DNA from: Nitrospirales bacterium | Lineage (GTDB): Bacteria; Nitrospirota; Nitrospiria; Nitrospirales; UBA8639 | Direction: 5' to 3' | Assembly: GCA_031315865.1 (NCBI GenBank) | Contig: JALDRJ010000002.1 | Span: 765,147 to 829,146 of the forward strand | Length of the DNA: 64,000 nucleotides | In this document: piece after piece, positions 12,899 to 29,569 of the stretch | Numbering within the stretch: position 1 is the stretch's first letter | Layout: every line of letters starts with the position of its first letter | Notes under the pieces: model-generated | Database searches by the model: none | Seen by the model: only the letters and a program-made list of their open reading frames with translations | Told to the model about the DNA's origin: nothing | Translations under genes and position numbers: made by a program

Positions 12899-12971
12899 CA
12901 ATAGCCCCCATTAAACGTAAGACGGAAAACATAAAACGCTTGGCAATAATCTTTATTCATTAATTCGCGCC

Positions 12972-13793
12972 CTACCCGATTTCTTTCGCCGCTTGCCGCA
13001 CCATCCAGGGACTCACGATCCGTTGTCCTTTGGCGTAGGCGGCAAGAAGCGAACGATCACAAAGTTGATTGATTCGTCTCGGGACTCCTCCACTCATCGC
13101 ATGAATCAGCGCCAAAATGGCGGAATTCACGTGCACACCCTCATCTTTTTTCGCGACCGCCAAACGATGTCGGACATATTTCATCGTTTCAAATAGGGTG
13201 AAAGGCTTCAGGCGATACCGTACGCTGATTCGTTGAGCCAAGGGACGCAATGCCCGTTTCATGAGTTTACTCTCGAGTTCCGGCTGACCGACGAGCAGCA
13301 GGCACATCAACTTTTCTTTTTCGGTATCCAAATTCGAGAGCAGACGCAATCCTTCCAAGACTTTTCCACTCAACCGGTGCGCTTCGTCAACGAGTACGGC
13401 AACCCGCTCACCGCCTTCGGCCAACCGCAGCAGTAAACGCGGCAACTCGCGTTGCAGCGATCCCAATGAGGCGTCCTGGGGGATCGCCCCCGTCAGGTCT
13501 TCATAGATCGAAGCCAGCAGCCCCCCGTACGATTGATCGGGGTTGAGTAAGTAGGCAAATCGCGTTTTTTCGGGTGGGTGCCGAAGCAAATGCCGGCAGA
13601 TGAGCGTCTTCCCGAGCCCCACTTCACCCGTCAGCATCGTGAGATTACCGCTGGCAATCCCAAAACGGAGATGAGTAAGCGCCTCAAGATGCCGGCTTCC
13701 CGGGAAAAAGAAATCCGTATCCGGTGTAATACGAAATGGCGGTTCGATAAAACCAAGGTCCTCATAACACAAGGCTAAATTACCTGAGATCAT
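12972..13793 (-). CDS. mshM: MshM-like AAA ATPase (ExeA/GspA family)
   Basis: A 273-residue cytoplasmic ATPase of the ExeA/MshM type. It starts with the family signature for this group (YEDLGFIEPPFRITPDTDFF), has Walker A GEVGLGKT at about residues 57-64, Walker B VAVLVDEAHRL (about 130-140), a sensor region LLLVGQPELESKL and the C-terminal QRISVRYRLKPF and GGVPRRINQLCDRSLL motifs typical of this family. Such ATPases help secretin assembly or insertion. The ATG overlaps the stop of mshL by four bases, so the two are coupled. The usual C-terminal membrane and peptidoglycan-binding part of ExeA is absent, which matches MshM. Confidence 0.88.
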   Translation of the reverse strand: MISGNLALCYEDLGFIEPPFRITPDTDFFFPGSRHLEALTHLRFGIASGNLTMLTGEVGLGKTLICRHLLRHPPEKTRFAYLLNPDQSYGGLLASIYEDLTGAIPQDASLGSLQRELPRLLLRLAEGGERVAVLVDEAHRLSGKVLEGLRLLSNLDTEKEKLMCLLLVGQPELESKLMKRALRPLAQRISVRYRLKPFTLFETMKYVRHRLAVAKKDEGVHVNSAILALIHAMSGGVPRRINQLCDRSLLAAYAKGQRIVSPWMVRQAAKEIG

Positions 13794-15343
13794 AAACGGC
13801 CCTCCACGATTCGAGGTTGCAGAAAAATCACCAGTTCACTCTTCGCCGTGATTTTATAGGTTCCTTTAAAGAGTCGCCCTAACCAAGGAATGTCTCCCAG
13901 CAGCGGAACCTTCCGCTCGGTTTCGGATACTTCATCTTGAATCAACCCTCCGATGATCACCATCTCCCCATCCTTGAGCCGCACCAATCCAGACGACTGC
14001 TTCACATCAAGAATGGGGGCCGTCGCCGTCTGCTGAGGGGACGTGGCGATTTCACGAAGACGGGAAATTATCGGCGTTACATCCATCATGATCCATCCAT
14101 CGTCCGAGATCTGAGGGGTGACCGAAAGCACGAGCCCGACAGTCACGGAGCGGGCTTGTTCCGTGACGATATTTCCCGTTCCACCCGTTCCTTGCACGAC
14201 CGTTTGGGTGAAAAACGCCTGGTCGGTCGCCACTTTGATCAACGCCGGTTGATTATTGAGCGTCAACAAACGAGGCTGGGAAATCACCTTCAAATCTCCC
14301 TGCTCCTGCAAAGCCTCTATCACCGTCTCAAACGTGCCTTTCGGGAAAGACGTTCTCGTCGTGGTCGTGGCCTGGGCAGTCGCCGCCTTGGCGACGAATC
14401 CGCCAAACGGAGCCGTGATGATATTGGATAAAACAAGGTTACCGGCTACACCATCTAAGGTGATCTGGTCCCAGTTTATTCCCAGGCTATAGCTGTCATT
14501 GAGATTCACTTCATAAATACGGGCCTGTATCTCGACCTGACGGTGGAGAGAACCACTGACCTTGGCAAGATATTGAGCAATGTCGACGACTCGTTGATGC
14601 AGGTCTGTCACCTGGATCGTCCCTGAGAGCCGGTTAAACACGAGCCGGCCTTCTTTTGACATCAAGGATTTCACCTGGGTTTCCAATTCTTCCCAAAACT
14701 TGATCTCGTCCTGTTGATTAACCGTAATTTCTCCTGTTCCTTGTCCGGCGCTCCCGCCACCGCTTGACGAGATATTGGCTTTGTTTTCTCCGGTGCCTCC
14801 CCGGACAAGTCGTATGTAGTCCAGGTTAAAGATTCGCGTTTCGTACTTACGCACCCGAATCAGGTCGCCATCCTGTTCCCAATAGTACCCATGGGCATCC
14901 AGCAATGCTGACATGGCGGCTTTCAACGGCAACGTGTGGAAATTCACGGTGATATTGCCGGTAATGTCCGGTCCCGCCACGATATTGAGTTGATTCGTAT
15001 GGGCAAAGAGTGTCAACGCATCAACCAATGGCATGTCCTGAGCTCGAAAGCTAAAGAGCGGCCCCAGGTCTTCTTCGGTTTGAGCGGCCTCGGCCAGATG
15101 CCCTAAAGGCATTCGATCGGCGACGGATAACACATGCGGCTCAACCATGTCTTGAGCTGGCAGTGACCCTATGAGAGCAGGCGATTGCGGGGCAACGCTC
15201 AAGACAGTTGAATCGTCTTCATCCTGAACAGCGACGGAACGTGGCGCCGTGCTACAACTACTCAGGACAAGAAATGCCGGAATGAGCGCCGTTAAGCAGG
15301 CTCTTTCCCAAAAAACATTGCCTGGAATAGTACGAACATTCAT
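13790..15343 (-). CDS. mshL: MshL-like secretin, outer-membrane pore of the MSHA-type pilus
   Basis: The frame runs from 15625, but the ATG at 15343 is chosen: it yields a lipoprotein signal (LTALIPAFLVLSSCS) and lies 25 bases after the mshK stop. The product is 517 residues. After a linker there is an STN/secretin N domain (FSFRAQDMPLVDALTLFAHT, LNIVAGPDITGNITVNFHTL, and YYWEQDGDLIRVR), an N1-like domain (RLSGTIQVTDLHQRVVDIAQ) and the secretin core with the family signature (LTLNNQPALIKVATDQAFF, MDVTPIISRL, LVRLKDGEMVIIGGLIQDE, VPLLGDIPWLGRLFKGTYK). It forms the multimeric outer-membrane channel for the pilus. A Gly/Ser-rich loop (SSSGGGSAGQG) sits in the middle of the periplasmic region. 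Confidence 0.92.
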   Translation of the reverse strand: MNVRTIPGNVFWERACLTALIPAFLVLSSCSTAPRSVAVQDEDDSTVLSVAPQSPALIGSLPAQDMVEPHVLSVADRMPLGHLAEAAQTEEDLGPLFSFRAQDMPLVDALTLFAHTNQLNIVAGPDITGNITVNFHTLPLKAAMSALLDAHGYYWEQDGDLIRVRKYETRIFNLDYIRLVRGGTGENKANISSSGGGSAGQGTGEITVNQQDEIKFWEELETQVKSLMSKEGRLVFNRLSGTIQVTDLHQRVVDIAQYLAKVSGSLHRQVEIQARIYEVNLNDSYSLGINWDQITLDGVAGNLVLSNIITAPFGGFVAKAATAQATTTTRTSFPKGTFETVIEALQEQGDLKVISQPRLLTLNNQPALIKVATDQAFFTQTVVQGTGGTGNIVTEQARSVTVGLVLSVTPQISDDGWIMMDVTPIISRLREIATSPQQTATAPILDVKQSSGLVRLKDGEMVIIGGLIQDEVSETERKVPLLGDIPWLGRLFKGTYKITAKSELVIFLQPRIVEGRL

Positions 15344-15368
15344 ACGTATCAACTCTTCATCACTCCCA

Positions 15369-16025
15369 TCACGAACAGGCGGAACCTGTAGAACAATCTC
15401 GACCATCCTTGAGAACGGCCTGTGTTTTCGTTCTTCGTTCGTCTCCTCTTGAATCGGACAGTCCAGACTCACGCCTCGTTCGCACCATTTCTTGGCTTCT
15501 CCGTTCCCCTCTGTTGGTAGTACCACTCGAATCTTTAAACCCCACATGATGTCGACCAGAAGGCCCCTGAAGCCACACGCCATCGGCTTCGATTTTTGCG
15601 ACTCGCAGGCCTTCAACCCGATCACCTTCCTCCACGAGTTTTCGGTTGATCATCGCGACTTTCGGCGCCGGTTCCAAGGCGACGGCGCTCAACTCCAGCG
15701 CAGGAAGAACCACACGCGGGGCTGAAACCTCGGCTAATTGCCGTTTCTCTTGATCGGCCGTCTTCTCGGGATTCTTGGACTGCGCCGTCATGGGCGCAAA
15801 CGGATCGCGTTCGAAGGTTGTCGTCCACCCAAATTCCGTGGTATCGGTGATCGAACGTTCATGACTCAATGACTTGAATTCAGCAAGAGGGGAGGAGGCA
15901 AGTGGCAAAGCGCGTGACGGCAAGGCCTGCCGGATGACCTCTTCTTCCGTATTGAAGTAGAAGAGCGCCACCGCTACGACACAGAGTCCAAGAACGACCC
16001 ACGGATTATTCAGGTACTGTCTCAT
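15369..16025 (-). CDS. mshK: MshK-like pilus biogenesis protein
   Basis: About 218 residues starting at the ATG at 16025, which overlaps the mshJ stop by four bases; a longer frame from 16043 is less likely. A transmembrane helix lies at residues 9-25 (WVVLGLCVVAVALFYF). A periplasmic region follows with a PilP/MshK-like core (FERDPFAPM, then VAMINRKLVEEGDRVEGLRV and IEADGVWLQGPSGRHHVGF), which in related systems contacts the secretin. The tail after about residue 165 is unusually long, basic and polar (RRSQEMVRTRRESGL) and ends in cysteines. The assignment relies on the PilP-like core and the gene order. Confidence 0.72.
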   Translation of the reverse strand: MRQYLNNPWVVLGLCVVAVALFYFNTEEEVIRQALPSRALPLASSPLAEFKSLSHERSITDTTEFGWTTTFERDPFAPMTAQSKNPEKTADQEKRQLAEVSAPRVVLPALELSAVALEPAPKVAMINRKLVEEGDRVEGLRVAKIEADGVWLQGPSGRHHVGFKDSSGTTNRGERRSQEMVRTRRESGLSDSRGDERRTKTQAVLKDGRDCSTGSACS

Positions 16026-16591
16026 GCAGCAGCCTTGATCCACACATGCAGCCCCACATTCATATGCGCCGCTCCCGTTCCACCCTGCACCTCTACTTCC
16101 TGAAGATCCATTCGAACCTGATCTTCCGAGAGTTGACGGAGAAACCGCAGGTATTTTTGGTAGGCGCCTTGAAGCATGCTCGGCGTTTCGGGGTACACTT
16201 TTAAATCAACAGGAACCTTTTCGACCTCGGTGAAACCAGGAACAGCAATGCGAGTGGGACGCACGCGATAAGTGACCTGCAACCCCATGGTAGACGCCTG
16301 CGTCTGCAGTTGCTGAAACCAGAGGGCGAGATGATCGAAGTCGCGAAGGAGCATCTGGTCGGCCTTCTGCATGCGTTGTCGTACGTTGTCCGGATGAGCC
16401 TGCGACCACTGCGTACGAAGATCCGCGATTTCATGCGAGAGGTAGTAACTGGCCTGGTTGCTCGAATGAGCCTGTTCAATCATTGACATCTGTGTCAGCA
16501 GAACGAAACCGATAAAGCCCAGCGTAAGCCCGATGGCGAACACCATAATCGAACGGGAATATCCACCAACCTTTTTCAGCAATTCATTCAT
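16022..16591 (-). CDS. mshJ: MshJ-like (PilO-type) pilus assembly protein
   Basis: About 189 residues from the ATG at 16591; a TTG two codons upstream is also possible. The N-terminus is followed by one transmembrane helix (15-37, SIMVFAIGLTLGFIGFVLL), then a coiled coil (ASYYLSHEIADLRTQWSQAH) and a small C-terminal alpha/beta fold of PilO type (LQTQASTMGLQVTYRVRPTR, VEVQGGTGAAHMNVGLHVWI). PilO/MshJ proteins are part of the inner-membrane alignment complex that links the cytoplasmic motor to the secretin. It lies 15 bases after mshI and overlaps mshK, consistent with the conserved I-J-K-L order. Confidence 0.75.
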   Translation of the reverse strand: MNELLKKVGGYSRSIMVFAIGLTLGFIGFVLLTQMSMIEQAHSSNQASYYLSHEIADLRTQWSQAHPDNVRQRMQKADQMLLRDFDHLALWFQQLQTQASTMGLQVTYRVRPTRIAVPGFTEVEKVPVDLKVYPETPSMLQGAYQKYLRFLRQLSEDQVRMDLQEVEVQGGTGAAHMNVGLHVWIKAAA

Positions 16592-16606
16592 CGTCAAAAC
16601 GCGGCA

Positions 16607-18016
16607 TTATCCTTGAATTCTTCCGATCATTGAAAATGTTCGAGGCTGGGCGTCCAGCCCTCTTTGTTGTTTCGTCGAAACCTCCTGAAGCCATGCTCCG
16701 CGCCAATCCCCGACGAAGGAGACTCGGTATGGTCCCTCTCTCAAACGCTCTTCAAGAGTCGCCAAACTTTGCGAGCCAGTGACCAGATCACCAGGCGCCA
16801 GGCCGGTCAGCTCCACTCGCCACTCATTCGATTCATGCGTAATCATGGCCTTGTTCAAAGTCAGTTCCGAAGGCAGGATCGTTCCCAGGTGTCCCAAAAG
16901 CCAACCGGGCAATGGCTGAACCCGTTGGTCTAGAATACGCTCGGCTCTAGCTTTCTGATCGGCCAAATTAGCCAATCGGTCCTTCCAGGTTTTTTTTTGT
17001 TTCAGCAAATCGCTTGATTCGGCTGCGAGGGCCACCGCGAGATTATGCGTTCCATTTAATTGACCTTGAAAAAAGCTGACGAGCCCGACTCCCACGAGCA
17101 AACAGATTACCACCGCTGCAGCCGTGAGTTTCATCATCACGTTTCGCATAGGCCCCAGAATCGCTTCTTTCGATGTAAAATTACTCGGACTTCGAACTGG
17201 CAATGCCAGGCTGACCCAGACCCAATAGGATGGGTCCGGACTCATAGGACTTTGGTTCAACGGCAGACCCACGAAGGGTTGCACCGTTGCCACCGAGACA
17301 TCCGATGATTCTCCGACCATCCAGACTTGCGAGACATTAATCGCATATTGTTGGGCACAAAACAGGATTGATCGTGTGATTTCGCGTCCGATCCGTTCGG
17401 ACGCATTCACGCCCTCACATGTCGGCTCCAAGAAGCGTTCAAATAACGGCGTACCATCGCCCATCGCCACGAGCAACGCGATCTTATCGGCCACGAGCGT
17501 CACCAGGAGCACGACATCATGATTATCGAGGGGAAGCGACCGGACCTGCTCAACGAATGTTGCGGAGAGGGGCGCGATTTGCACTGGCGTTAAGTCCAAT
17601 GCTTGGCTGACTTCGATCACGGAATCCACGACATCTTTGGGCCAAATATCAATCAGAACGCCGATTCTCCCCCGAGCCTCTCGAGTGGTTCGAAACCGCC
17701 ACGTAGTCGGACCATCCCAGGTTTTCATCTCCTCGACAGCATTCTTCAGATATAGACGAAGGTCAGAGGGCTTCATCGCCGGCACTTGAATGTATTGATG
17801 AACAAAGCGTTGATCTTCAATGAGAAAAGAAATTTTTTGGCCAGAAAAGTTAGTGTGTTTGAGGGTTTCTCTGACTGCCGTCCGCAAATCGCCAGAAGAC
17901 TCGACCCGATGCGGATATTCCCATTGCCCCACGACCTGATCCTTCACGACAGCCAGGGCACGAAAGCGGCCGTGAATCAGGCTCACGCCAAGAATCGTTT
18001 TTTTTCGAGGCGTCAT
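16607..18016 (-). CDS. mshI: MshI-like pilus assembly protein (PilM-PilN type)
   Basis: The frame opens at 18106, but an ATG at 18016 with GAGG nine bases upstream gives a start directly at the actin-like core (TPRKKTILGVSLIHGRFRAL), so about 469 residues. Residues 1-280 resemble PilM (VVLLVTLVADKIALLVAMGD; GREITRSILFCAQQYAINVS). A transmembrane helix at about 300-320 (LTAAAVVICLLVGVGLVSFF) and a coiled coil follow, then a PilN-like periplasmic part (PGWLLGHLGTILPSELTLNK; WRVELTGLAPG). MshI thus combines cytoplasmic PilM and membrane PilN functions. It is the first gene of the assembly-machine block and follows the giant prepilin gene after a 240-base gap that shows only a weak hairpin (AGGCAC/GTGCCT, 18218-18240). 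Confidence 0.78.
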   Translation of the reverse strand: MTPRKKTILGVSLIHGRFRALAVVKDQVVGQWEYPHRVESSGDLRTAVRETLKHTNFSGQKISFLIEDQRFVHQYIQVPAMKPSDLRLYLKNAVEEMKTWDGPTTWRFRTTREARGRIGVLIDIWPKDVVDSVIEVSQALDLTPVQIAPLSATFVEQVRSLPLDNHDVVLLVTLVADKIALLVAMGDGTPLFERFLEPTCEGVNASERIGREITRSILFCAQQYAINVSQVWMVGESSDVSVATVQPFVGLPLNQSPMSPDPSYWVWVSLALPVRSPSNFTSKEAILGPMRNVMMKLTAAAVVICLLVGVGLVSFFQGQLNGTHNLAVALAAESSDLLKQKKTWKDRLANLADQKARAERILDQRVQPLPGWLLGHLGTILPSELTLNKAMITHESNEWRVELTGLAPGDLVTGSQSLATLEERLREGPYRVSFVGDWRGAWLQEVSTKQQRGLDAQPRTFSMIGRIQG

Positions 18017-18256
18017 AAAACCTGGCCTCGTGAGAGTGAGATCAATCATCATTCGAAATCGCCGGCCATCCGGCAGGCATGCACAGAGTCCTCCATAGAC
18101 ACTCATGTAGAGTTTCGGAGTTTTCTGTATGATTCTTGATGGTTAGGGAAAATTTCTTTTAAAAACGGATAGCGGTGAACGACAGAGATGCCCGTCGTCA
18201 TTCGCCAGTGTGGTGGGGAGGCACATGAAAACGCCGTGCCTGCGGTTCGCCGTTAT

Positions 18257-21196
18257 TTATGACGTCGTCATCTGGAAGTCGTCAAGATAGAGGAAGGATG
18301 GTCCGTCGGTGTCGATATCCTCAGCGACGCCAAAGTAGATCGTATAGGTCCCCGCACCCGGAAAATTGAAATAGGTCGTTTGGTAGCCGGTCATATTCCC
18401 GCCTGGACCACCAGGAATAAAAGACGACCCCTTGACACTGCCTAAGATCGTGAACTGAACCTCACTGCCGCTCGAATCCGTCACGTAGTAGAACGCGAGG
18501 TCATTGTACGTCCCACCGGGCGTATCCGCCGTTCCAAAGTTCCATTGGAATGACAGTTGGCTACCGTCCCCAACACGCACAGTCTGCTTGATCCCTTCAA
18601 ACTCTTTAATCGATATGCCCGTCTTTGCGTTAAAGGCAGCATTGGTGAATCCAAAGAACGCCTCGAGATTTCCATTATCCTGACCACTGGTTTCGGTATC
18701 GGGAGAATCTGCGAACGTTCGGATTCTGGCCTGATACGTCCCGTCAGGAGGCGTGATACCTAGATCTGACGCTTGCTCCAGCACGAGACTGGATGTCCCG
18801 TCAAAGACCGTGCCGATCGTCCCGGCGTACGTCCACCCGGCAAAATCGAAGTATTCTTCGAAGCTGCCATTTGAGACCCTGTTCAACACGGCCGTCTCCG
18901 CCAGCATAATGCCTCCGAGATTATCCACACCCGCGTCGGTGTAGGTACTCTGCGCGTTCTTCGTCCCCCATACAGTGACCTCGATGCTTCGCGTCCCGAC
19001 GGGAACCTCGACGTACGGAATCGTGAGGTCAGTCCAAGAATAGGCCGTGGCATTGTTGCTGACGGCCGCACTGCCTATCGGATTCCCCCCAGAAACCGCG
19101 TCATAAAAAGTGAGCTGCAAGCTCCCGTAGTCCCGTTTGAGAGCATCCGTCTGTCCATGACCGACTCCCGAGAGCGTCACAACCAATCCGCCAGCATCAA
19201 TATTCACAGAACAAGCGCTGACGGCAATCCGCTGCGAAAGACCAGTTCGATGAGTATTTCCTCCCGTCTCCCCATTTGTTTCGGCGCTGGCAAAATAGGT
19301 CCCGCCAGGCGCACTGGGCATATAATAGGAAGCTGTCGTGGCATTCCATTGATTCACTCCACCTTGGCCAAAGACATCCTCAGTTCGTGTCCAGCCTGTG
19401 AGGTCGCCAGTCTCGAACCCCGGGTTGATAATCGGCAGGAGCCAATTGGAACAAGTCCCGCTCAATGTAATTCCGACCACTGAATCCGATGATGAACTGG
19501 GGATCAGCCCCGCATCACTCCCATCAAACAACATGGTGGCCCTCCCGGCCGACAAGAGTCCTGTTCCCGTCAAATCCAACACAAAGACATCTTCGCTGTT
19601 GACCAGCAGATTGTTGTCACCCACTAACACACCATCCCCCACCGTCGTCGACAAAATCTGTCCGGCTTTTAAGGTCACATCGCCGACCTTCAGCGGGGTC
19701 TCGACCAATTCAAACGAATAGAAATAATCATCGGCATTGTACAAGTCCGTCAAGGTGCCGGCCGTAGTGTTTCCTGCCCAGAATGGAACGAATAATTTGA
19801 TTCCTGAGCGTATCGCCGTCCGCATCAAGAAAGAGCCAGCCTGGATGGTCGTCCCCCCCACTTTCGTCGCCGTTTCCACGAGCGACACCCCTTGCACACG
19901 AGCCCACCCCACATCCGATCCATCGAACAACATGAAAAACGTTCCTGAGGAATAGTCCCCTGGCTTCCAGGGACGAAACACATAGACATCTTTCTCTTCC
20001 ACAAACAATGAATTGTGACTCGTCATCGTGACATCGTGAATATCGGATGCCAGGATATCACCGGCTTTGAGATCGACCGTATTGGCGCCTGTACCAATCG
20101 TTATATCTCGCGACACGAAATGGAGTGACTCAACCACCGACGCTCCAAACTCCTGAAGATCGACCAGAGGCCCGCGGAATGTCCCAGCCGTCGTCCCGGC
20201 TGGCCCCGACTCGAACGTGAGACCTGGCTCGCCATAGGCGATCATCATATCGTTATTCCATGTGCCCACCCCGGATTTCCCGGTGGGAGCCCCCCAGGTC
20301 GTGAGCCAGAACTGCGCAGGCTCACCGCCGCATTCGACGCCTGGCACATGCCATTGTTTTCCCGCCTCACATGCTGGATCGAATTCAAACTCGACATCTG
20401 ACGTCAGGACGACCTGCAATTCCGGAGTCCCAAAGGTATTGGCCTCATCGAAGCTTAGAATCGTCCCGGGAAGATGGTACCGCTCATACGGCGCCAGGGT
20501 CCCACCCGATGAATGTGTCGTCGTTCCTCCAATTTGAAAGCTCCCGCCATTACCGACAGCAGATAAAGAAACTCTCAAAAAGGTGCTGGCCAGGTTTCCC
20601 CGATAGATATGCAATTCCGGATTCACCGATTCGTCCATTGACCACCATGTCGTAAATTCCGTCCCGTTGGAGATGGTCGGAGCCGCGTCAGCCACCCGGT
20701 TCGAAATCAAGAGAAATCGCGCATCGACCAGTGCCGTTTCTGCCAACCCGGTGCCGTTATTGAATCCGCTCATATTGGGATGGAGAACATAGTATCGTGG
20801 GAACAAGCGGTCGTTCCGTAAGAGCTGTGTAGAATCCAATGGCGAGTAACTCGTGTGAGCCGCAAGCGTCGGAGGCCACGTATGCGTACTCCGGAGATAG
20901 GTCGCCGAGCTCGACCCGATATGCTCAAGAATGTCATTTTCTGTCTCGTTGGCCTTCGTATTGAAGCTTGTGACCATATTCGGCAGCAGCGCGGTCGCCA
21001 AAATCACCACAATCGCCAACACTCCCATCATCGCGATGAGAGCAAACCCCTTATCATCAAGCTTTCCGCTCATCTTGTGGATGTTGGCCTTCAACTTTGA
21101 ATGAACCCTCGCTCGTCTTTTGCTCCAGGTCTCTTCTCCCCCGTCTTGCGTTTTGCAGCTCCCGGGAGAGGCGTCACGCGTTCCCCATTCATCCAT
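18257..21196 (-). CDS. Giant modular prepilin-like protein (979 residues) with lectin-like C-terminal modules
   Basis: The longest member of a pilin series. A leader of about 49 residues ends in a prepilin cleavage site (KLDDKG, then FALIAMMGVLAIVVILATAL), with Ala in place of the usual Glu5. The N-terminal block (to about 280) is shared with the 276- and 589-residue neighbours (FPRYYVLHPNMSGFNNGTGL, DARFLLISNRVADAAPTISN, ELHIYRGNLASTFL). Residues ~300-600 carry repeats of a module containing KPGDYSSGTFFMLFDGSDVG and ATMLFDGSDAGL. The last ~370 residues hold two jelly-roll-like modules starting NPGFETGDLTGW and NGSFEEYFDFAGW, typical of extracellular glycan-binding or PEP-CTERM-type ectodomains. 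The start at 21196 overlaps the upstream pilin stop by eight bases; an ATG at 21073 would give a more usual leader. Function as a tip adhesin is inference. Confidence 0.82.
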   Translation of the reverse strand: MDEWGTRDASPGSCKTQDGGEETWSKRRARVHSKLKANIHKMSGKLDDKGFALIAMMGVLAIVVILATALLPNMVTSFNTKANETENDILEHIGSSSATYLRSTHTWPPTLAAHTSYSPLDSTQLLRNDRLFPRYYVLHPNMSGFNNGTGLAETALVDARFLLISNRVADAAPTISNGTEFTTWWSMDESVNPELHIYRGNLASTFLRVSLSAVGNGGSFQIGGTTTHSSGGTLAPYERYHLPGTILSFDEANTFGTPELQVVLTSDVEFEFDPACEAGKQWHVPGVECGGEPAQFWLTTWGAPTGKSGVGTWNNDMMIAYGEPGLTFESGPAGTTAGTFRGPLVDLQEFGASVVESLHFVSRDITIGTGANTVDLKAGDILASDIHDVTMTSHNSLFVEEKDVYVFRPWKPGDYSSGTFFMLFDGSDVGWARVQGVSLVETATKVGGTTIQAGSFLMRTAIRSGIKLFVPFWAGNTTAGTLTDLYNADDYFYSFELVETPLKVGDVTLKAGQILSTTVGDGVLVGDNNLLVNSEDVFVLDLTGTGLLSAGRATMLFDGSDAGLIPSSSSDSVVGITLSGTCSNWLLPIINPGFETGDLTGWTRTEDVFGQGGVNQWNATTASYYMPSAPGGTYFASAETNGETGGNTHRTGLSQRIAVSACSVNIDAGGLVVTLSGVGHGQTDALKRDYGSLQLTFYDAVSGGNPIGSAAVSNNATAYSWTDLTIPYVEVPVGTRSIEVTVWGTKNAQSTYTDAGVDNLGGIMLAETAVLNRVSNGSFEEYFDFAGWTYAGTIGTVFDGTSSLVLEQASDLGITPPDGTYQARIRTFADSPDTETSGQDNGNLEAFFGFTNAAFNAKTGISIKEFEGIKQTVRVGDGSQLSFQWNFGTADTPGGTYNDLAFYYVTDSSGSEVQFTILGSVKGSSFIPGGPGGNMTGYQTTYFNFPGAGTYTIYFGVAEDIDTDGPSFLYLDDFQMTTS

Positions 21197-21884
21197 GCAT
21201 GAGGTAAATCAACATCTCCTTTGTCGTGATGTCATATTTCACACGACCGCGAAGTTGCCGCTCTGTTGCAGTACCGCCAAATCCTTTATCCAGGATCGAA
21301 TCCACGCGTTCAAAGTCTTGAAGCGTAATGTCGGAAAACGAGACATAGACCACGTTGGCCGAAGCCGGGATATCACTATTCGCATCGTCATTAAGATCCC
21401 ATGCACGGTTTGATCCCGTCGTCGCTGTCCCATACGCTTCTGGTGTTCTCGCCGGCATGCGAACCGTCGTGCCAAGTCCCGGAGGAGTCGTCGAAGAGAA
21501 CTTCGCGAGATAAGGCCCCTTGAACTTAACCCAACTATTGTTGCCGGTATTCAAAGGATCGGATTGATCCAGGGTCAATCGCGCAGGAAGTGATCGGCTA
21601 TTATTACTATTTCCGCTGTTTTCCACGGCCGGAACGCCTGAGACGTCTAATGGAAGAAGCGAACCGATGTCCGCATAATAATCAACGACGGCCGTTTCAT
21701 AGGTCTTAACCGCTGCGACCAAGGCATTCGCTTTTGATTCGGCCATAATCTCGAAGACTCTCGGGAGCAAGAGCGCGACAAGAACGGTCATGACAGCCAG
21801 TACGCCGATCATTTCGATCAAGGTAAAGCCGTCGCTCTTCCCTCGTTGTTCGATACTCAAGGTGGTCTGTATAGCTCTTTGCAT
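21189..21884 (-). CDS. MSHA-type prepilin, paralogue of the pilin at 28904-29569
   Basis: About 231 residues from the ATG at 21884 (GAAGGC shortly upstream); the open frame extends to 21938. The leader ends KSDG and cleavage would give FTLIEMIGVLAVMTVLVALL, a complete class III signal with Glu5. The body follows the same pattern as the pilin at 28904-29569: SKANALVAAVKTYETAVVDY, SLPARLTLDQSDPLNTG, KFKGPYLAKF, AWDLNDDANSDIP, and the end RGRVKYDITTKEMLIYLMHG. It is probably a major or minor subunit of the fibre. It lies ten bases after the 589-residue prepilin and overlaps the start of the 979-residue one, so the pilins form an operon. Confidence 0.85.
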   Translation of the reverse strand: MQRAIQTTLSIEQRGKSDGFTLIEMIGVLAVMTVLVALLLPRVFEIMAESKANALVAAVKTYETAVVDYYADIGSLLPLDVSGVPAVENSGNSNNSRSLPARLTLDQSDPLNTGNNSWVKFKGPYLAKFSSTTPPGLGTTVRMPARTPEAYGTATTGSNRAWDLNDDANSDIPASANVVYVSFSDITLQDFERVDSILDKGFGGTATERQLRGRVKYDITTKEMLIYLMHG

Positions 21885-21948
21885 GTTGCCTTCAACTATG
21901 GTTCTTCCGAATCTCATCGGCCGTATTTCGTCTTTCAATTGCTGCTGT

Positions 21949-23718
21949 TCACAGCGTTGGCGCCAGCGAAACCGCTTGTATATTTTCCGACGTCGTATTC
22001 AGTCCAACGTCCGCTCCCTCAAGGAGAAGTGTCGCATTGGCGACGGTTGCCCCCGATCCCATCGTCGTCGCAGAAATATCCAAATAAAATATGTCATATG
22101 GCCCGACATCCAAATCGTTCATGCCAACGTTTGTTTCCGCTTGGCCTAACGTGATGAGGAGATAACCCGGCTGAAGGGTCGTTCCCGCAAACGTCACGGC
22201 CTCTTCGATGACATCGAGGCCGACGACAGCTGTTCCTACACCAATATCAATATCACTGCCGTTTATCAGCGTTGAGGTCGTGCCGCTCGTTGTCCCAAGC
22301 CCCACCCCCATCGGCACAAAATACTGTATATTGTTCTGATTGCCGCCTGCTTCACTGAAAATGAATGTTCCGGCTTGCAAGTTCACGTCACCGACAGTCA
22401 CCGTGCGTTCGATCAACGAGATGCTCGTCGCATTATTCGCAAAGATCCCCCACCCTGTGAAATTATGCAGCAACATCAAAAATGTCCCTGAGGAATAGTC
22501 TCCAGGCTTGTCAGGACGAAAAATAAACAGATCGTTGGAGCCAACGGTCAGAGCGGTATTGCTGACTAACGCTTCAAAAGTGTTCGTTGAGAGCAACAGA
22601 TCCCCGGGCTTGACCTCCATCGTCGTCGTCACGCCGATCGTCATCTGAGTCGTGACGTAATGAATAGCCGAAATGCCGTTCACTCCCCCAAACGAGAATC
22701 CATCAAGAGAGACAGCCGACGAAAGGGTCCCACTCGTCAGTCCTGGCTCCCCCGCTAGATCAGGCATTCCGAATTGCAGCACCTCCCCATTCTGCCAGCT
22801 ATCCAGACACGGCGCGCCGCTAGGCGAAGGCACGTCTGTTGCTGTCGTCATCCATAGGGACCAGCATTCAGGGTTCGACGCCGGCATCGTCCTCCAGCGT
22901 GAACCAGCGGCGTGACAGGGGTCGTATCGATAACTCCTATCTTCCATGAGGGAGAATTGGACTTCTGGTGTGCCATAGGGGGAGACTTCATCGAGGGCAA
23001 TCATGGTTCCAGCGAGATGGTATTTCGTATGAATAAGCGCCGGTTTCGCGCGACAATCCCAATTGGTCGTCACATCCTCAATTCGATAGGCTCCTCTTGC
23101 CCCAGGAGCTTCTAGCGTCAACAAGCTGTACAGATCACTGACTTGACCTCGATGGATTTTGAGGTCCGGCGTGGAGGTTTCGTCTGTATCCCACCACGCG
23201 TCGAACTCCGCGGCGTTTGTAATCGTGGGAGCTGCGTCGTCGATCAGGCTAGAGATAAGAAGATACTGTGCGTCATCAAGCTCGTTCGAAGATAAGCCTG
23301 TCGCATTCGTGAGGCCTCTGACATCGGGATGCACGAAAAAATAACGAGGGAACCCGGCGTCATTCCGCGTCAATTGGAGAATGTCGGTGGGCAGATAATC
23401 AGGACTGAGCGACGCAAGATCTGGAGGCCAGGCGTGGGTTTCCCTGAGGTAGACTTCGATACCTTGCGCGATGCCTTGGAGTGTTGTGATTTCAGCATCG
23501 CGGACAGCCGCCTTGAGATGATTGATCACGGCCGGAGAGATCACCGCGCCAAGGATCGCGATGACCGCGATGACGCCGATAAACTCGAGAAAGGAAAACC
23601 CTCGGTTCGTCAGACGGAACGCATGAGGCGTGTGACGTGAGATGCAGGGAAAAGAACGTGATACGTCAAGCGTGAAGACTCTTATGCGATTGTTGACGAA
23701 ATAGAAAAGACGCCTCAA
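21949..23718 (-). CDS. Large modular prepilin-like protein (589 residues)
   Basis: A TTG start at 23718 is supported by AAGGA eight bases upstream; no in-frame ATG precedes the cleavage site. The leader ends RLTNRG and the mature protein begins FSFLEFIGVIAVIAILGAVI. Residues ~60-290 match the block of the 276-residue pilin (GIAQGIEVYLRETHAWPPDL, GFPRYFFVHPDVRGLTNATG, DAQYLLISSLIDDAAPTITN, DLKIHRGQVSDLYSLL). The C-terminal 300 residues are rich in Thr, Gly and Asp and include KPGDYSSGTFLMLLHNFTGW and NATLLLEGADVGLNT, the module also found in the 979-residue neighbour. It ends without lectin-like modules. It is probably exported and assembled with the pilus as a minor, exposed subunit. Confidence 0.82.
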   Translation of the reverse strand: MRRLFYFVNNRIRVFTLDVSRSFPCISRHTPHAFRLTNRGFSFLEFIGVIAVIAILGAVISPAVINHLKAAVRDAEITTLQGIAQGIEVYLRETHAWPPDLASLSPDYLPTDILQLTRNDAGFPRYFFVHPDVRGLTNATGLSSNELDDAQYLLISSLIDDAAPTITNAAEFDAWWDTDETSTPDLKIHRGQVSDLYSLLTLEAPGARGAYRIEDVTTNWDCRAKPALIHTKYHLAGTMIALDEVSPYGTPEVQFSLMEDRSYRYDPCHAAGSRWRTMPASNPECWSLWMTTATDVPSPSGAPCLDSWQNGEVLQFGMPDLAGEPGLTSGTLSSAVSLDGFSFGGVNGISAIHYVTTQMTIGVTTTMEVKPGDLLLSTNTFEALVSNTALTVGSNDLFIFRPDKPGDYSSGTFLMLLHNFTGWGIFANNATSISLIERTVTVGDVNLQAGTFIFSEAGGNQNNIQYFVPMGVGLGTTSGTTSTLINGSDIDIGVGTAVVGLDVIEEAVTFAGTTLQPGYLLITLGQAETNVGMNDLDVGPYDIFYLDISATTMGSGATVANATLLLEGADVGLNTTSENIQAVSLAPTL

Positions 23719-23733
23719 GGATGATATCCTTCA

Positions 23734-24561
23734 TCATGTCTGACAGGTCGAACCCAGGGCATTCCATCGCGAACCCGCGTAACAATCCGGATTGAATTGA
23801 TAGCCTGCGTCGAAGGTCAGCGTAAAATTCAGTTCTGAATTTCCGTTCGAAAACGTATCCGCTTCATCCAGTTCTATCGGCGTCCCCACCAGATGATAAT
23901 TGCCATAGGACGTTAATCTCCCTCCTCCGGAGTTCGTCGCCGTCCCATCGATTCGGTAACTCCCTCCATCCCCGACTGCACTCACGCTGACCAGATGAAA
24001 CAGCCTGCCCATGTGGCCACGGTAAATTTCGACATCTGGTGTTGTCGTCGTATCGGTATTCCACCAGACATCGAATTGCGCCCCGTTTGTGATCGTTGGA
24101 TTGGCGTCTGCCGCGAGATTGGAGATCAGGAGAAATCGCGCATCTGGCAGATCGCTGCCCGTTATCCCCATCGCATTGTTAAAGCTTCCCATGTCCGGAT
24201 GCACGAAAAAATACCGGGGAAACCCTCGTTCATTCGTCCCGATCCGGGTTGAAGCAATCGGCACATAATCAGGGCTCAAGGATGGAAGGTTGGCAGGCCA
24301 CGAACGGTTTTCTCGCAAATAGACTTCGATGCCTTTGGCGATATCTTCCAAATACATGGCTTCGTGGTCTCGCGCCGCGATATTCAAATGTTTGACGAAT
24401 TGTGGAGCCAGCAGCCCACCCAGGATTGCCAACACGGCTAACACACCGAGCATTTCGATTAACGTAAATCCGTTGTTCGTGTCTCGTCGTCCATTGTTCA
24501 TTGATCGCGAAAGTAACGCCAACACTCCTCTAGCGCGATACTGATCAGCGATGGATAACAT
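23734..24561 (-). CDS. MSHA-type prepilin-like protein (about 275 residues)
   Basis: The start is the ATG at 24561, just after GTG, with GAGGAG a few bases upstream. The leader is long (about 31 residues) and ends RRDTNNG before FTLIEMLGVLAVLAILGGLL, a canonical class III signal with Glu5. The mature domain shows IAKGIEVYLRENRSWPANLP, GFPRYFFVHPDMGSFNNAMG, DARFLLISNLAADANPTITN and DVEIYRGHMGRLFHLVSVSA. This block is the minimal form of the series completed by the 589- and 979-residue proteins. Three cysteines near the C-terminus (NPDCYAGSRW; STCQT) could form a disulfide. First gene of the second pilin operon, facing the PEP-CTERM gene. Confidence 0.83.
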   Translation of the reverse strand: MLSIADQYRARGVLALLSRSMNNGRRDTNNGFTLIEMLGVLAVLAILGGLLAPQFVKHLNIAARDHEAMYLEDIAKGIEVYLRENRSWPANLPSLSPDYVPIASTRIGTNERGFPRYFFVHPDMGSFNNAMGITGSDLPDARFLLISNLAADANPTITNGAQFDVWWNTDTTTTPDVEIYRGHMGRLFHLVSVSAVGDGGSYRIDGTATNSGGGRLTSYGNYHLVGTPIELDEADTFSNGNSELNFTLTFDAGYQFNPDCYAGSRWNALGSTCQT

Positions 24562-24564
24562 CAC

Positions 24565-25071
24565 TCTCCTCTACAAGAAATGGGAAACGGGACACGTTTT
24601 TCGGCCATGAACGCAAACCCTCGTGTCTTCTTTCGACACAATTTCTCTTTTTCTTAACAGTCTCTAACGAATCCTGCACGACTCGCATTCTAATAGTATG
24701 AGCTCTTCTCGCTGGTACCTTCTAAGTGTCGCTCCCCTTTACACATTGTTATCCGAAAATCATGCTCGTCATTTATCTGTTGTGATTCGTTCGTTGAGAT
24801 TGTCCTCAGTTTTTCTTCCTTCTTCGACGCTTTAAGGAATTTCTCAAAGAACAATCGTTTGGTTTTTTGACAGTGCCTTGAAGACCGGCAAAAGAACTCA
24901 TCGTCTTTCGTTTTCGATGAGCATGCATTGGTATCTCGTTCTCTCACATATCTCTCCGTTCCTATCAATTCTTGAGCGGCCATCAACATTGGGACCTTGG
25001 CATCTCAATTGCTCAGACTATGAGAGACATTAAATTTTCTTTCTGTACAACCGAAGTTCTTGCTATCTATC
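24565..25071. other. Divergent intergenic region between a prepilin operon and a PEP-CTERM gene
   Basis: About 500 bases separate the leftward prepilin operon from the rightward gene at 25087, so promoters for both should lie here. The only shared signal I can point to is GCTTTAAGGAATTTC at 24829-24843, which recurs as GCTTTAGGGAATTTC at 29701-29715 upstream of another prepilin gene. A 99-codon leftward frame (24690-24989) shows no family pattern, is very rich in Lys, Glu and Ser and is probably chance. Confidence 0.5.
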
Positions 25072-25078
25072 AAGGAGG
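25072..25078 (+). promoter_or_regulatory. Strong ribosome-binding site AAGGAGG deciding the PEP-CTERM start
   Basis: AAGGAGG lies eight bases before the ATG at 25087. It rules out the upstream in-frame start at 25060 and gives a protein beginning with a proper signal peptide. Confidence 0.85.
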
Positions 25079-25086
25079 TTCGCATT

Positions 25087-25864: not shown

Positions 25865-27070
25865 TCAGCGCATGCCTCCCATCAGGCTCATCATGGGAAG
25901 GAAGATGGACACAGCGACGATACCCACCGTTCCGATCAACCCAACCGTGATCATCGGTTCCATGATGCCAAAGATCTTTTTGACCCGCCGTGGAATTTCT
26001 TCGTTGTAATAATGCGCCACATGCAGCATGGTTTGATCCAGGCGACCAGCCGCCTCACCGACTGAAACCATTTGAATCAAGATTGAAGGAAAGACCGGAT
26101 GGAGCCGGAGCGCATTGCTGATGGTCGCGCCTTCCGATACATCCTGCTCCACTTTCTTGAGGGCCTTGGCGATGACGAGATTGCCGACCAACCGCTGACA
26201 CAAGCTCAGCCCCTGCAGCACAGGAATGCCGGCTTTGTACAGCACTCCAAAGTTATGCGTGAACCGTGAAAGCGCGACCATACTCTTGAGCGGGCCGAAA
26301 ACCGGTATCTTCAGCATCCAGGTGTCCCACAACAAGGCAAAACCCGGGACCCGGGACTTGCTCGCTATTATGCCCACAGGTATGCCGATTAGCAGAATTG
26401 CCCATACCCACCAGGTATTTTCCATAAACTTGCTAAACGCCAGGACCACGACCGTGACGAAGGGAAGCGGAACATTCAGACTTTCAAGGATCGGCGTGAA
26501 GCGGGGAATGACAAAGGTAAACATCAGAATAAAGAGTGCGAGGACAGCCGTCAGGATCGTGGTGGGATAGATGACGGCCTGACGGACTTCTCCTTTCATC
26601 CGTTCTACCCATTCCAGGTATCGCTGCAACTCCACAAACGTCTCAGGCAATGTCCCACTTTCTTCACCAGCCTGCACGAGGTTCACGACGAGTTGAGGAA
26701 AGACGCGGGGATACTGACTCATGGCTGTATGCAGAGGAACGCCTGTCTCAACCGTACGCCACACTCTATCTAAAACGAGGCCAAACTGCGGGGTTGATGC
26801 TTCCTGAGCTAGATTGATCAACGAGGTGAGGACCGGCACACCGGCTTGCGACAGACTCGACATGTGTGTGACAAATTCGAGTATGACCTGCGGTTTCACT
26901 TTGACAGTGCCATGTGACCCTGTCGCCACTTCGCGAGTTTCTTTGGCCTCTATGAGGAGTTTTCCACCCTCCTTCAATCGTCCTCGAAGATCATCGACAT
27001 TCTCGGCCGCCAGGACCCCTTTCTGAGTGCCGCCTTGCTGGTCAACGGCCCGGTATTTATAGTTAGCCAT
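25865..27070 (-). CDS. mshG: MshG-like inner-membrane platform protein (GspF/PilC family)
   Basis: 401 residues with the two duplicated T2SF/GspF domains: the first around 68-190 (FVTHMSSLSQAGVPVLTSLI, then RVFPQLVVNLVQAGEESGTL) and the second around 270-390 (RFTHNFGVLYKAGIPVLQGL, then HPVFPSILIQMVSVGEAAGR). Membrane helices at about 167-190 (IYPTTILTAVLALFILMF), 215-235 and 372-395 (ITVGLIGTVGIVAVSIFLP). The N-terminal YKYRAVDQQGGTQKGVLAAE is the usual family start. It is the inner-membrane platform on which pilins are extracted, working with the ATPase MshE, whose gene it overlaps by eight bases. Confidence 0.93.
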   Translation of the reverse strand: MANYKYRAVDQQGGTQKGVLAAENVDDLRGRLKEGGKLLIEAKETREVATGSHGTVKVKPQVILEFVTHMSSLSQAGVPVLTSLINLAQEASTPQFGLVLDRVWRTVETGVPLHTAMSQYPRVFPQLVVNLVQAGEESGTLPETFVELQRYLEWVERMKGEVRQAVIYPTTILTAVLALFILMFTFVIPRFTPILESLNVPLPFVTVVVLAFSKFMENTWWVWAILLIGIPVGIIASKSRVPGFALLWDTWMLKIPVFGPLKSMVALSRFTHNFGVLYKAGIPVLQGLSLCQRLVGNLVIAKALKKVEQDVSEGATISNALRLHPVFPSILIQMVSVGEAAGRLDQTMLHVAHYYNEEIPRRVKKIFGIMEPMITVGLIGTVGIVAVSIFLPMMSLMGGMR

Positions 27071-28754
27071 CGACCACCCTCAACACTTCTTCAACTGTCG
27101 TCAGTCCTTGAAACGCCTTGGCCAGCCCATCTTCCTTCATCGTAATCATGCCTTCTTTACGGGCAATTCCTCGAATCGCTGGTAAATCCGGTCCTTGTAC
27201 GATCGGCAGATGTACCTGTTCGTTCATGAGAAAGACTTCATAAATACCCTGGCGTCCGCGAAAGCCGGTATTCCCGCATGCGCGGCACCCTTTTCCTTGC
27301 CACAGCCTCGGGGGCTCTCCCTCTGGCGGTTGAATCTTCAGTGCCTTCAAGACTTGCTCCACATCAGTCCGCTCTTCTTTACATCCGTGACAAATGAGCC
27401 GAAGAAGCCGCTGCGCGACAACTCCAGAAAGCGCCGATGCCAACAGATAGGGTTCAACTCCCATATCGATCAAACGAGGGATCGCCCCCACCGCATCGTT
27501 CGTATGTAACGTCGAAAAAACAAGGTGACCGGTCATGGCCGCGCGCATGGCCAAATCCGCCGTTTCGAGATCACGAATCTCTCCAACCATGATCACGTCG
27601 GGATCTTGCCGCAATAAGGCGCGAAGACCCGCGGCGAACGTCATGCCGATGCCTGGATTCACCTGAGTTTGCCTGACCATGGGCATTTGGTATTCCACGG
27701 GATCTTCTAGCGTAAACACGCCCTTCTCCTGCGCATTCACCTCTCGTAAACTGGTGTAGAGCGTGGTCGTTTTTCCACTCCCCGTCGGACCGGTGACCAG
27801 CAATATCCCGTATGGACGCTGCACGACGGATCGCACTCGCTGCTGATTATGCGCGGTAAACCCTAGCGAAGAGAATTCCAGGTTCACGGCGGATTTATCG
27901 AGAATTCGCATAACCACGCTTTCACCGAAATTCGTCGGTAAGGTCGACACACGCAAGTCGACCCGACGGGTGCCGGAAGTAAATGGAATTCGTCCATCCT
28001 GAGGCAACCGTTTTTCAGTCACATTTAACGTCGCCATGAGTTTCAATCGCGCGATAATCGAGGCTTGCAGAATTTTGGGAATGAGAATTTCTCGTCCGAG
28101 CAACCCATCGACTCGGATACGAATCCGCAAATACTGCTCATCTGGTTCGACGTGGATATCTGTGGCTCGAATCTGGATCGCAAAGGTGATGATCTGGTTA
28201 CAGAGCCGAATCATCGGCGCTTCGGTCCCTGATTGTTCCCCCAACGCGCCCAATCCTTGCTTGGCCAATTGGTCAACCAGATTCGTAATGGTCTCGCTCT
28301 GGGCATACAGGCGTTCGATCGCATCGGAGATCGTTTGCGACGGGGCGGCGACCACTTCGACGTTCAATCCCGTGATACGCTCAATGGTATCGACCGCCAT
28401 GACGTTGTACGTATCAGCGAATGCGACTTTTAGCAGATTGCCTTTTCTCTCGATCGGCAGGAGACGGAACTGCGCAGACAACTCATGGGGGACGAGTGCA
28501 AGCACATCGGGAGGAATGAAACAATCGGAGAGATCGAGAACCGTTGCTTGTGACTCGGTCGCCAGATAGGTCGTCAGAACTTCATCCGTGATGAACCCAA
28601 GACTGACGAGGGTTTCACCAAGAAATTTTCCGTTCCGCTTCGATTCTTTAAGGGCCAGATCGAGTTGGTCTTCTGCGAGCAGACCGTCAGCGACGAGTCG
28701 GTCACCAAGACGCTTGGGCTTGGTCGGTGCATGTTCCATGACGGATAAATTCAT
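27063..28754 (-). CDS. mshE: MshE-like pilus assembly ATPase (GspE/PilB family)
   Basis: 563 residues. The N-terminal MshEN domain (RLGDRLVADGLLAEDQLDLA, GKFLGETLVSLGFITDEVL) belongs to a family known to bind cyclic-di-GMP in MshE and PilB homologues. The C-terminal ATPase has Walker A GPTGSGKTTT (about 319-328), an Asp box (GVFTLEDPVEYQMPM), Walker B (RALLRQDPDVIMVGEIRD), a His box (GHLVFSTLHTNDA) and a zinc-binding tetracysteine (CHGC ... CRACG) before GFRGRQGIYEVFLM. It powers pilus extension. No PilT-like retraction ATPase is seen in the window. The start could also be the ATG at 28739 (MEHAPTKPKRLGDRL). c-di-GMP control is known for the family and is not shown by this sequence alone. Confidence 0.93.
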   Translation of the reverse strand: MNLSVMEHAPTKPKRLGDRLVADGLLAEDQLDLALKESKRNGKFLGETLVSLGFITDEVLTTYLATESQATVLDLSDCFIPPDVLALVPHELSAQFRLLPIERKGNLLKVAFADTYNVMAVDTIERITGLNVEVVAAPSQTISDAIERLYAQSETITNLVDQLAKQGLGALGEQSGTEAPMIRLCNQIITFAIQIRATDIHVEPDEQYLRIRIRVDGLLGREILIPKILQASIIARLKLMATLNVTEKRLPQDGRIPFTSGTRRVDLRVSTLPTNFGESVVMRILDKSAVNLEFSSLGFTAHNQQRVRSVVQRPYGILLVTGPTGSGKTTTLYTSLREVNAQEKGVFTLEDPVEYQMPMVRQTQVNPGIGMTFAAGLRALLRQDPDVIMVGEIRDLETADLAMRAAMTGHLVFSTLHTNDAVGAIPRLIDMGVEPYLLASALSGVVAQRLLRLICHGCKEERTDVEQVLKALKIQPPEGEPPRLWQGKGCRACGNTGFRGRQGIYEVFLMNEQVHLPIVQGPDLPAIRGIARKEGMITMKEDGLAKAFQGLTTVEEVLRVVDG

Positions 28755-28903: not shown

Positions 28904-29569
28904 TTACCCATGATTGAGGTAAATCATCATTTGGTCAGTAGCCGAATCATATTTCACCCGGCCGCGCAAGACTCGTTGGGCCGTCGTGGTGCCCATACCC
29001 GGATCAATAATCGCGTCGACTTTGTCGAAATCGGAATCGCTGATTCCCGTAAAATAGACATAGACCACATTGGCCCCACTCGGGATATCGCTGTTCCCAT
29101 CATTATTCAGGTCCCACGCGATATTGGAGGCTGTTGTCGCTGTCCCGTAACTCACGGGTGCCGTGGCGGGCATGTATACGCCTGTTCCAAGCCCTGGAGG
29201 CACAGCCGTGACAAATTTGGCTAAATACGGGCCTTTGAACCTGGACCAGCCATTCGCGCCGGTGTTCAACGCATCGGATGAATCCAACGTCAAACGTGCC
29301 GGAAGCGAGACTGCCGTGGCGCTATCGCCGGTTGCCTCCGCGGTCGGGACTCCCGTGGCATCGAGAGGCAGCAACGAACTGATGTCGGAGTAGTAATCCA
29401 CCACGGCCGTTTCATACGTCCGGATAGCTGCAACCAAGGCATTAGCCTTTGATTCCGCCATAATCTCAAACACCTTTGGCAACAGTAATGCGACCAGAAT
29501 AGCGATGACGGCCAATACGCCGATCATTTCGATTAAGGTAAATCCTTGTTCGCGTCGTTCCTTATTCAT
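28904..29569 (-). CDS. MSHA-type major-pilin-like prepilin
   Basis: 221 residues. The start has AAGGG eight to nine bases upstream and a short leader MNKERREQG, cleaved before FTLIEMIGVLAVIAILVALL with Glu5: the most classical prepilin of the set. The globular part reads KANALVAAIRTYETAVVDYY, LPLDATGVPTAEATGDSATA, RFKGPYLAKF, AWDLNNDGNSDIPSGANVVY and ends GRVKYDSATDQMMIYLNHG. It closely resembles the pilin at 21189-21884, suggesting a duplication on either side of the machinery genes. With its short leader, good ribosome-binding site and location at the head of mshE-mshG it is my candidate for the major subunit. Confidence 0.87.
   Translation of the reverse strand: MNKERREQGFTLIEMIGVLAVIAILVALLLPKVFEIMAESKANALVAAIRTYETAVVDYYSDISSLLPLDATGVPTAEATGDSATAVSLPARLTLDSSDALNTGANGWSRFKGPYLAKFVTAVPPGLGTGVYMPATAPVSYGTATTASNIAWDLNNDGNSDIPSGANVVYVYFTGISDSDFDKVDAIIDPGMGTTTAQRVLRGRVKYDSATDQMMIYLNHG

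Follow-up and report, generated by a model that had tools for sequence, protein, structure and literature searches.

Prepilin genes of the pilus locus

The sequence analysis was applied to a 64-kb stretch of DNA (the window) of a Nitrospirales bacterium (contig JALDRJ010000002.1, positions 765,147 to 829,146) and, within it, to three prepilins of a type IV pilus locus resembling that of the mannose-sensitive hemagglutinin (MSHA) pilus. The locus lay on the minus strand, running from 30542 to 11330, and it displayed the gene order two GspG-like prepilins, ATPase, platform protein, prepilin gene run (24564 to 18257), and mshI-J-K-L-M-N-type genes. The three prepilins were designated S (276 amino acids [aa]), M (589 aa), and L (979 aa), these sizes being those of the longest open reading frames (ORFs), and the gene run had the following features:

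23734..24564, minus strand: S, bare-block prepilin, 276 aa
21949..23718, minus strand: M, prepilin, 589 aa, with the shared block at 22876-23598 and a propeller-like repeat tail at 21952-22878
21189..21938, minus strand: copy of the GspG-like prepilin GPIL, 249 aa, between the M and L genes
18257..21196, minus strand: L, prepilin, 979 aa, without glutamate at mature position 5 (Glu5), proposed tip subunit
21032..21034, minus strand: codon of mature residue 5 of L, GCG (Ala); Glu in S and M
20324..21046, minus strand: mature pilin block of L, 240 profile positions
19451..20320, minus strand: RPT of L, repeat region, predicted to be beta-propeller-like, homologous to the M tail
18893..19450, minus strand: JR1 of L, residues 583-768, beta sandwich resembling carbohydrate-binding modules (CBM) and galactose-binding domains
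18260..18892, minus strand: JR2 of L, residues 769-979

S, M, and L shared a block of about 240 residues (a preliminary description made from the sequence had put it at about 220), and the blocks of M and L were each 47% identical to that of S. A block search of the whole genome (3.78 Mb, two contigs) detected exactly three full copies, with E values of 1.9e-75 and 2.5e-69 for M and L; as judged from sequence, the homology of the three blocks is far beyond chance. S had only 2 aa past the block. The preliminary description had taken the three for adjacent prepilins, and prepilins they were, but their genes were not strictly adjacent because the fourth prepilin gene (21189-21938), which belonged to a different pilin family and was 67% identical to the GPIL gene product encoded at 28904, lay between M and L. 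S likely started at ATG 24561 behind AGAGGAG, and for M (TTG) and L the start codon was uncertain, L having an in-frame ATG eight codons ahead of the cleavage glycine.

A class III signal (G^F plus hydrophobic helix) was found in S, M, and L, as already described, but the three N-termini were not equivalent: mature S and M started with FTLIEMLGVL and FSFLEFIG, respectively, each with Glu5, while mature L started with FALIAMMG and had Ala5 instead; with Pfam N_methyl (cut-off 21.2), S scored above the cut-off, and M (15.7) and L (16.8) did not reach it. That L alone was without Glu5 was the most telling feature of the set, and the preliminary description had overlooked it.

Searches of S, M, L, and the window tails against Pfam and NCBIfam returned the pilin N-terminus only, and the block profile, searched against PDB sequences, matched them in the pilin helix region alone. 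The fold search with the S model (predicted local distance difference test [pLDDT] score of 60) gave only a weak pilin match (TcpA, Z 3.6). When structure predictions were checked for a common N-terminal domain, the models of S and L displayed a similar order of structural elements in the first 200 residues, which fits such a domain at medium confidence.

Tail modules of M and L

Past the block, M (with a tail of 309 residues) and L shared a further region of about 290 aa, RPT (E 6e-33), which by eye was composed of three imperfect repeats carrying KPGDYSSGTF and DGSDVGL motifs. L continued with JR1 and JR2, and the account of a C-terminal repeat region in M and L, followed by two further modules in L, thus stood as first given. 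The structure model of L, built from a 19-sequence alignment and including the helix, the pilin domain, RPT, and JR1, began with an N-terminal helix of 53 residues, followed by a pilin domain rich in beta structure; RPT was predicted well (pLDDT mostly 75-93) and JR1 fairly well. RPT matched beta-propellers at Z 8-9 (nidogen 8.8 and levanase 8.9), near the level at which the tool warns of a mere common arrangement. JR1 matched the sugar-binding domain of Fbs1 (Z 10.7), CBM61 (Z 9.9, 18% identity), and CBM16 (Z 8.8), with phage tailspike and other sandwich domains scoring in the same range; JR1 is thus predicted to resemble carbohydrate-binding modules as a fold, which does not by itself prove a ligand. 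JR2 had a homologue (E 7e-10) in the related genome G006, a protein whose C-terminus is of the PEP-CTERM type (genomes and genera of relatives are denoted by G and g numbers). The PDB sequence search gave one chance match for the RPT profile and none for the JR1 plus JR2 profile, and the RPT tree did not resolve the direction of repeat acquisition between M and L.

Distribution and phylogeny of the block family

By profile search, the block family was found in 30 of 236 Nitrospirales genomes: 29 of the 49 genomes of the window's family, plus one further carrier in another family of the order. Among 396 evenly sampled Nitrospirota genomes, no carrier was found outside the window's family, and the block family was confined to Nitrospirales in the genomes sampled. 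The named relatives were metagenome-assembled genomes deposited as Nitrospirales, except one labelled Nitrospinota: JACZVJ010000146.1 (L022/L030), deposited as Nitrospinota bacterium B18T1B5, carried the block family, and its genome was placed in the window's own family; its label looks wrong, or the bin looks mixed. Genus g4 of the same family (G007, G014, G017, G020, and others), with small genomes of 1.9-3.0 Mb, had no block in 14 of 14 sampled members, for which habitat could be the reason.

The full trio was rarer than the pair of S and L, which was present in 27 genomes with one L each, except G029 with two L on separate contigs; L occurred wherever S was completely sampled, and M was restricted to the window's genus and G015. 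Two irregular copies were also observed: the block copy of G009 (L034 1-690, cut by the contig start) ended in a tail of about 67 residues that were almost purely Asp, Lys, and Glu, and the S gene of G065 (L049 1021-1918) was split into two frames with a stop, being a broken gene or an assembly error.

Glu5 was absent in 28/28 full-length L rows (A, V, G, or T instead) and present in 35/35 S and M rows. Since the class had been assigned by residue 5 itself, these counts taken alone are a circular argument for the L class, and a tree with the first 30 residues (the N-terminal helix) removed served as the independent check. In the all-column tree, L formed one side of a branch (support 93/90), and the M rows fell together in a clade (100/98) on the other side, with S. 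After removal of those 30 residues, a branch (87/43; 84% of bootstraps) continued to set all 28 Glu5-less rows apart, and the L labels clustered better than in all 500 shuffles (0/500 as clustered). The tree and the distribution suggest that S and L form an ancient pair found in almost all genomes with the family and that M arose later, by duplication on the S side.

Probable exchange of L tails between relatives

The length past the block was 0-3 residues for S in all 29 rows and 0 to 690 residues for L; tails of more than 100 aa were found in 15/28 L, 0/29 S, and 6/6 M, and most of genus g9 had no L tail (L of 267 aa). The L tails were of several kinds: (i) a Laminin_G_3 lectin domain in G016 (7.7e-22) and, as assigned by similarity (79% identity), in G066; (ii) CBM96 in G067 (4.4e-8); (iii) a MAM/reelin-like sandwich, below the Pfam cut-off, in G031, G062, G070, G071, and G048; (iv) RPT in G015 and G006, the G006 copy being cut by the contig end; (v) RPT plus JR1 in G002-G004, RPT plus two JR1 in G001, and RPT plus JR1 plus JR2 in the window; and (vi) yet another tail in the partial copy of G068. 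The S proteins of G016, G066, G067, and G031, which belong to one clade, were 83-88% identical, yet the same four genomes had three unrelated L tails. At least six changes of tail kind were needed on the L tree (nine in a finer scheme), and the L tails would mostly have been replaced rather than lengthened; additive gain fits only within the window's genus (RPT plus JR1, then JR1 twice or JR1 plus JR2). A 407-aa protein of G006 (RPT plus JR1 and no pilin block) was considered as a free-standing module donor and rejected, being cut by the contig end and probably the rest of a pilin.

The synonymous divergence (dS) was compared along the locus in pairs of relatives: (i) in G064/G069, dS was 0.29-0.48 for gspE, gspF, and mshI, 0.73 for S, and 2.89 for L; (ii) in G062/G071, it was 0.24 for S, 0.17 for mshI, and 1.40 for L, and gspE and gspF were also high (0.84-1.15), so the exchanged stretch may exceed L; (iii) in G003/G004, it was 0.94 for the L tail and saturated for the L block, with identities of 66% for the L block and 77% for RPT; (iv) in G002/G004, the L block was 83% identical and RPT only 46%; and (v) G019/G021, G019/G033, and G012/G035 had no dS peak at L, all L there being tail-less. 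Between the window and its nearest relative dS was saturated, and no claim of recombination is made for that pair. That dS peaked at L, or at the L tail, in several of the pairs points to recombination between species in the cassette between gspF and mshI, in which whole L alleles or L tails would have been exchanged. A shufflon-like switch was rejected: no inverted repeats of at least 20 nt were found in window 18000-25500, and a tail-region search of the genome found no silent tail copies apart from the M tail. The ratio of nonsynonymous to synonymous divergence (dN/dS) was 0.08-0.20 wherever dS was estimable (0.12-0.19 for the L block), and the genes were therefore under purifying selection; the L blocks diverged more than the S blocks.

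The cassette displayed the gene order S-M-GPIL-L in the window, G001, and G003 and the order S-L-M-GPIL in G002 and G004. Extra GspG-like pilin copies were located within the cassette (window 21189-21938; L027 6412-9032; L028 9388-11744): one each in the window and G001, three in G003, and three plus an 80-aa fragment in G002. They are a possible second layer of pilin variation.

Pilus machinery and neighboring genes

The remaining genes of the locus were as follows:

29850..30542, minus strand: GPIL paralogue, GspG-like prepilin, 230 aa, Glu5 present (LSLLE)
28904..29569, minus strand: GPIL, probable major pilin, GspG-like, Glu5 present
27063..28754, minus strand: assembly ATPase of GspE/MshE/PilB type (from sequence; kept beside the pilins in relatives; pilT-family profile 176 bits)
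25865..27070, minus strand: platform protein of GspF/MshG/PilC type (from sequence and synteny)
16607..18106, minus strand: MshI-like protein, edge of the variable pilin cassette (from position and synteny)
16022..16597, minus strand: MshJ-like protein
15369..16043, minus strand: MshK-like protein
13790..15625, minus strand: secretin, best match MshL
12972..13793, minus strand: MshM-like protein
11330..12901, minus strand: MshN-like protein

The best profile of the secretin was MshL TIGR02519 (243.6 bits vs a cut-off of 250.2), with GspD at 171 bits; it was the sole profile match near an MSHA cut-off. The protein at the MshK position weakly matched the GspC profile (38 bits vs a cut-off of 150), and the MshI-like protein matched no Pfam or NCBIfam family above its cut-off. 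The mshI-J-K-L-M-N order with adjoining ATPase and platform genes was conserved in the window and relatives, and the modular pilin family first placed in an MSHA locus is supported as belonging to an MSHA-like one. A PilT-type ATPase and a prepilin peptidase were encoded elsewhere in the same genome. The PF05567 (PilY1) profile gave 0 matches in the 49 family genomes, but the controls were equally silent, and absence of PilY1 is not claimable from it.

Three neighboring genes were also observed. A PEP-CTERM protein gene (1e-6; window 25060-25746, plus strand) interrupted the run of pilus genes, standing on the opposite strand with the platform gene on one side and S on the other; a simple motif scan saw no such ORF in the fetched loci of relatives. 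A second PEP-CTERM-like protein of 306 aa (window 30757-31677, plus strand) was encoded on the opposite strand directly past the other end of the pilin genes, and a large hybrid sensor kinase (by eye with PAS, kinase, receiver, and Hpt regions; window 7127-10846, minus strand) was encoded past the mshN-like gene.

Comparison with known systems

Modular pilins are widespread, with more than 1,200 proteins in 264 architectures (PMC8179133), and large pilins with lectin tails are therefore not new. By sequence and fold comparison, L appears to carry non-pilus C-terminal modules of the kind that defines them: Laminin_G_3 and CBM96 tails in relatives, a CBM-like fold of JR1, and a JR2 homologue with a PEP-CTERM-type end. 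In Streptococcus sanguinis PilB and PilC (PMC8179133, PMC9934059), a pilin module likewise has a grafted C-terminal adhesive module (vWA or ConA-like lectin), and these modular pilins are paired with a small Glu5-less subunit, PilA, thought to initiate the fibre; however, the Glu5-less PilA is bare and the modular subunits have Glu5, whereas here the Glu5-less L carries the tail and its partner S is bare, and the sequence relation seen between these pilins and S, M, or L was confined to the pilin helix. GspK of type II secretion (PMC5207764) is, like L, the sole Glu5-less minor pilin of its set and larger than the major pilin, but its pilin domain is interrupted by an alpha-helical insertion, whereas the extra modules of L are beta structures at the C-terminus and its GspK profile match stayed below the cut-off.

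PilV of IncI plasmids (PMC9045228) resembles L in its constant N-terminal pilin part and exchangeable C-terminal adhesin part; its shufflon is switched within one cell by a site-specific recombinase, whereas the L tails would have been exchanged between lineages. The Kil/Tad tips of Myxococcus (PMC12075869) are also large minor pilins with variable C-terminal domains and a proposed tip position setting target choice, but they belong to a Tad pilus with four paralogous tip sets per genome, whereas here there was one L per genome with allelic differences. The Vibrio MSHA pilus (PMC7096442) shares with the present locus a secretin closest to MshL, an mshI-N-like order, and a large suspected adhesin (MshQ) in the locus; it differs in that the block family was found only in Nitrospirales, and MshQ is likened to L by description, not by sequence. 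In the openly licensed papers searched, neither the block family nor the exchange of tails on a subunit without Glu5 was described, and no paper on pili of these organisms was found (the combination of Nitrospira and MSHA pilus gave passing mentions only, and the genome papers were silent on pili). The novelty apparently lies in tail exchange on the Glu5-less subunit itself.

Proposed role of L and alternative explanations

Glu5, by which a pilin docks beneath a subunit that the fibre already contains, is believed to neutralise the N-terminus of that upper subunit. Within GspHIJK, GspK alone is devoid of Glu5 (PMC5207764), most type II secretion and type IVa pilus systems have one minor pilin with a hydrophobic residue at position 5 (PMC5207764, PMC9934059), and the lack of Glu5 together with large size has been proposed as the signature of the first fibre subunit, and the first position, that of the tip, has been assigned to GspK and to PilA of S. 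sanguinis (PMC5207764, PMC9934059). It is proposed, with a probability of roughly 60%, that L is a Glu5-less, GspK-like tip subunit of an MSHA-like type IV pilus and presents exchangeable adhesin tails. S, M, and L would then be minor pilins of this pilus. Having lost Glu5, L could only be the first (tip) subunit: it would start the fibre at the inner membrane, leave first through the secretin, and present its tail at the tip; it would need no Glu5 because nothing lies above it, and its C-terminus would for the same reason be free for large cargo. S, and M where present, both with Glu5, would follow L and link it to the major pilin, S staying bare; in the window's genus, the S-side copy M would also have acquired the repeat region. 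Exchange of L alleles or tails between species would change the binding target of the pilus. The adhesin family put forward in the preliminary description is probable, given the CBM-like fold of JR1 and the Laminin_G_3 and CBM96 tails in relatives, which may bind carbohydrates; the adhesin role itself is still inferred.

Several points weigh against this proposal. The tip position of L and its exit from the membrane are inferred steps, and by sequence L does not belong to GspK (12.7 bits vs a cut-off of 130, in the pilin helix only). The pilin globular domain was modelled at medium confidence only (mean pLDDT about 60), and the exclusive L branch had modest support after removal of the N-terminal helix. 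The cassette gene order varied between genera, with L last in some only. About half of the L proteins were tail-less, and L must therefore have some job beyond carrying an adhesin.

If S, M, and L were instead incorporated rarely along the fibre, with their tails pointing sideways and the loss of Glu5 incidental, M with its Glu5 and 309-residue tail could enter the shaft, and a shaft position has been left possible for modular pilins with flexible linkers (PMC8179133). Such decoration of the shaft is nevertheless unlikely: no L retained Glu5, whereas all S and M did, and position-5 substitutions in TcpB spare pilus initiation but harm those functions that are ascribed to its incorporation as the fibre grows (PMC5207764). 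The resemblance to GspK, which is also without Glu5 and the largest pseudopilin, and the weak GspC match at the MshK position would agree with a secretion pseudopilus that L stalls or caps while still short, its tails holding secreted substrates and not surfaces; this seems rather improbable, since the secretin prefers MshL to GspD, the gene order is of the mshI-N type, and lectin-like tails changing between close relatives fit surface binding better.

The preliminary description had read the three proteins as a graded set made by stepwise domain gain, with S plus the repeat giving M and M plus jelly rolls giving L. RPT is indeed common to M and L, and the L architectures are additive within the window's genus (RPT plus JR1, then JR1 twice in G001 or JR1 plus JR2 in the window), but the series of 276, 589, and 979 aa is not a ladder because M appears to be a later duplicate on the S side, found in two genera only and younger than L; with L of other genera being tail-less or having unrelated tails, this reading is largely refuted and now very improbable. 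No more credit is due to the idea that L is a membrane-anchored surface protein that kept its pilin-type leader and is no longer assembled, the loss of Glu5 marking its retirement from the fibre. Loss of Glu5 does lower docking (PMC5207764), some L are tail-less, and the L blocks are more diverged than the S blocks; however, L kept the cleavage glycine and the hydrophobic helix, its block had a dN/dS of 0.12-0.19, and Glu5 loss combined with retention of one copy per genome in a pilus operon is the known pattern of tip subunits.

Implications

The findings bear on how the type IV pili of environmental bacteria select their targets. Within a single bacterial family, one constant base of a tip-type pilin was joined to no fewer than six kinds of tail, often of a sugar-binding type, and the bare partner S offers a built-in control. 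The chances are about even that a Glu5-less first subunit serves as an evolvable adhesin platform, in which one orthologous tip pilin per genome has its tail repeatedly replaced by interspecies recombination and the rest of the machine stays constant, giving a natural allelic series of specificities in nitrite-oxidising bacteria. The history of tail swaps could be set against habitat, and cloned tails would be directly testable for ligands. Cultures of marine Nitrospirales exist (PMC10579370). The findings also suggest a sequence rule, a Glu5-less pilin plus a tail, for finding tip adhesins missed by domain databases, Pfam being blank on the window's tails. The bacteria of this nitrite-oxidising family seem to re-tool pilus adhesion by swapping the tip.

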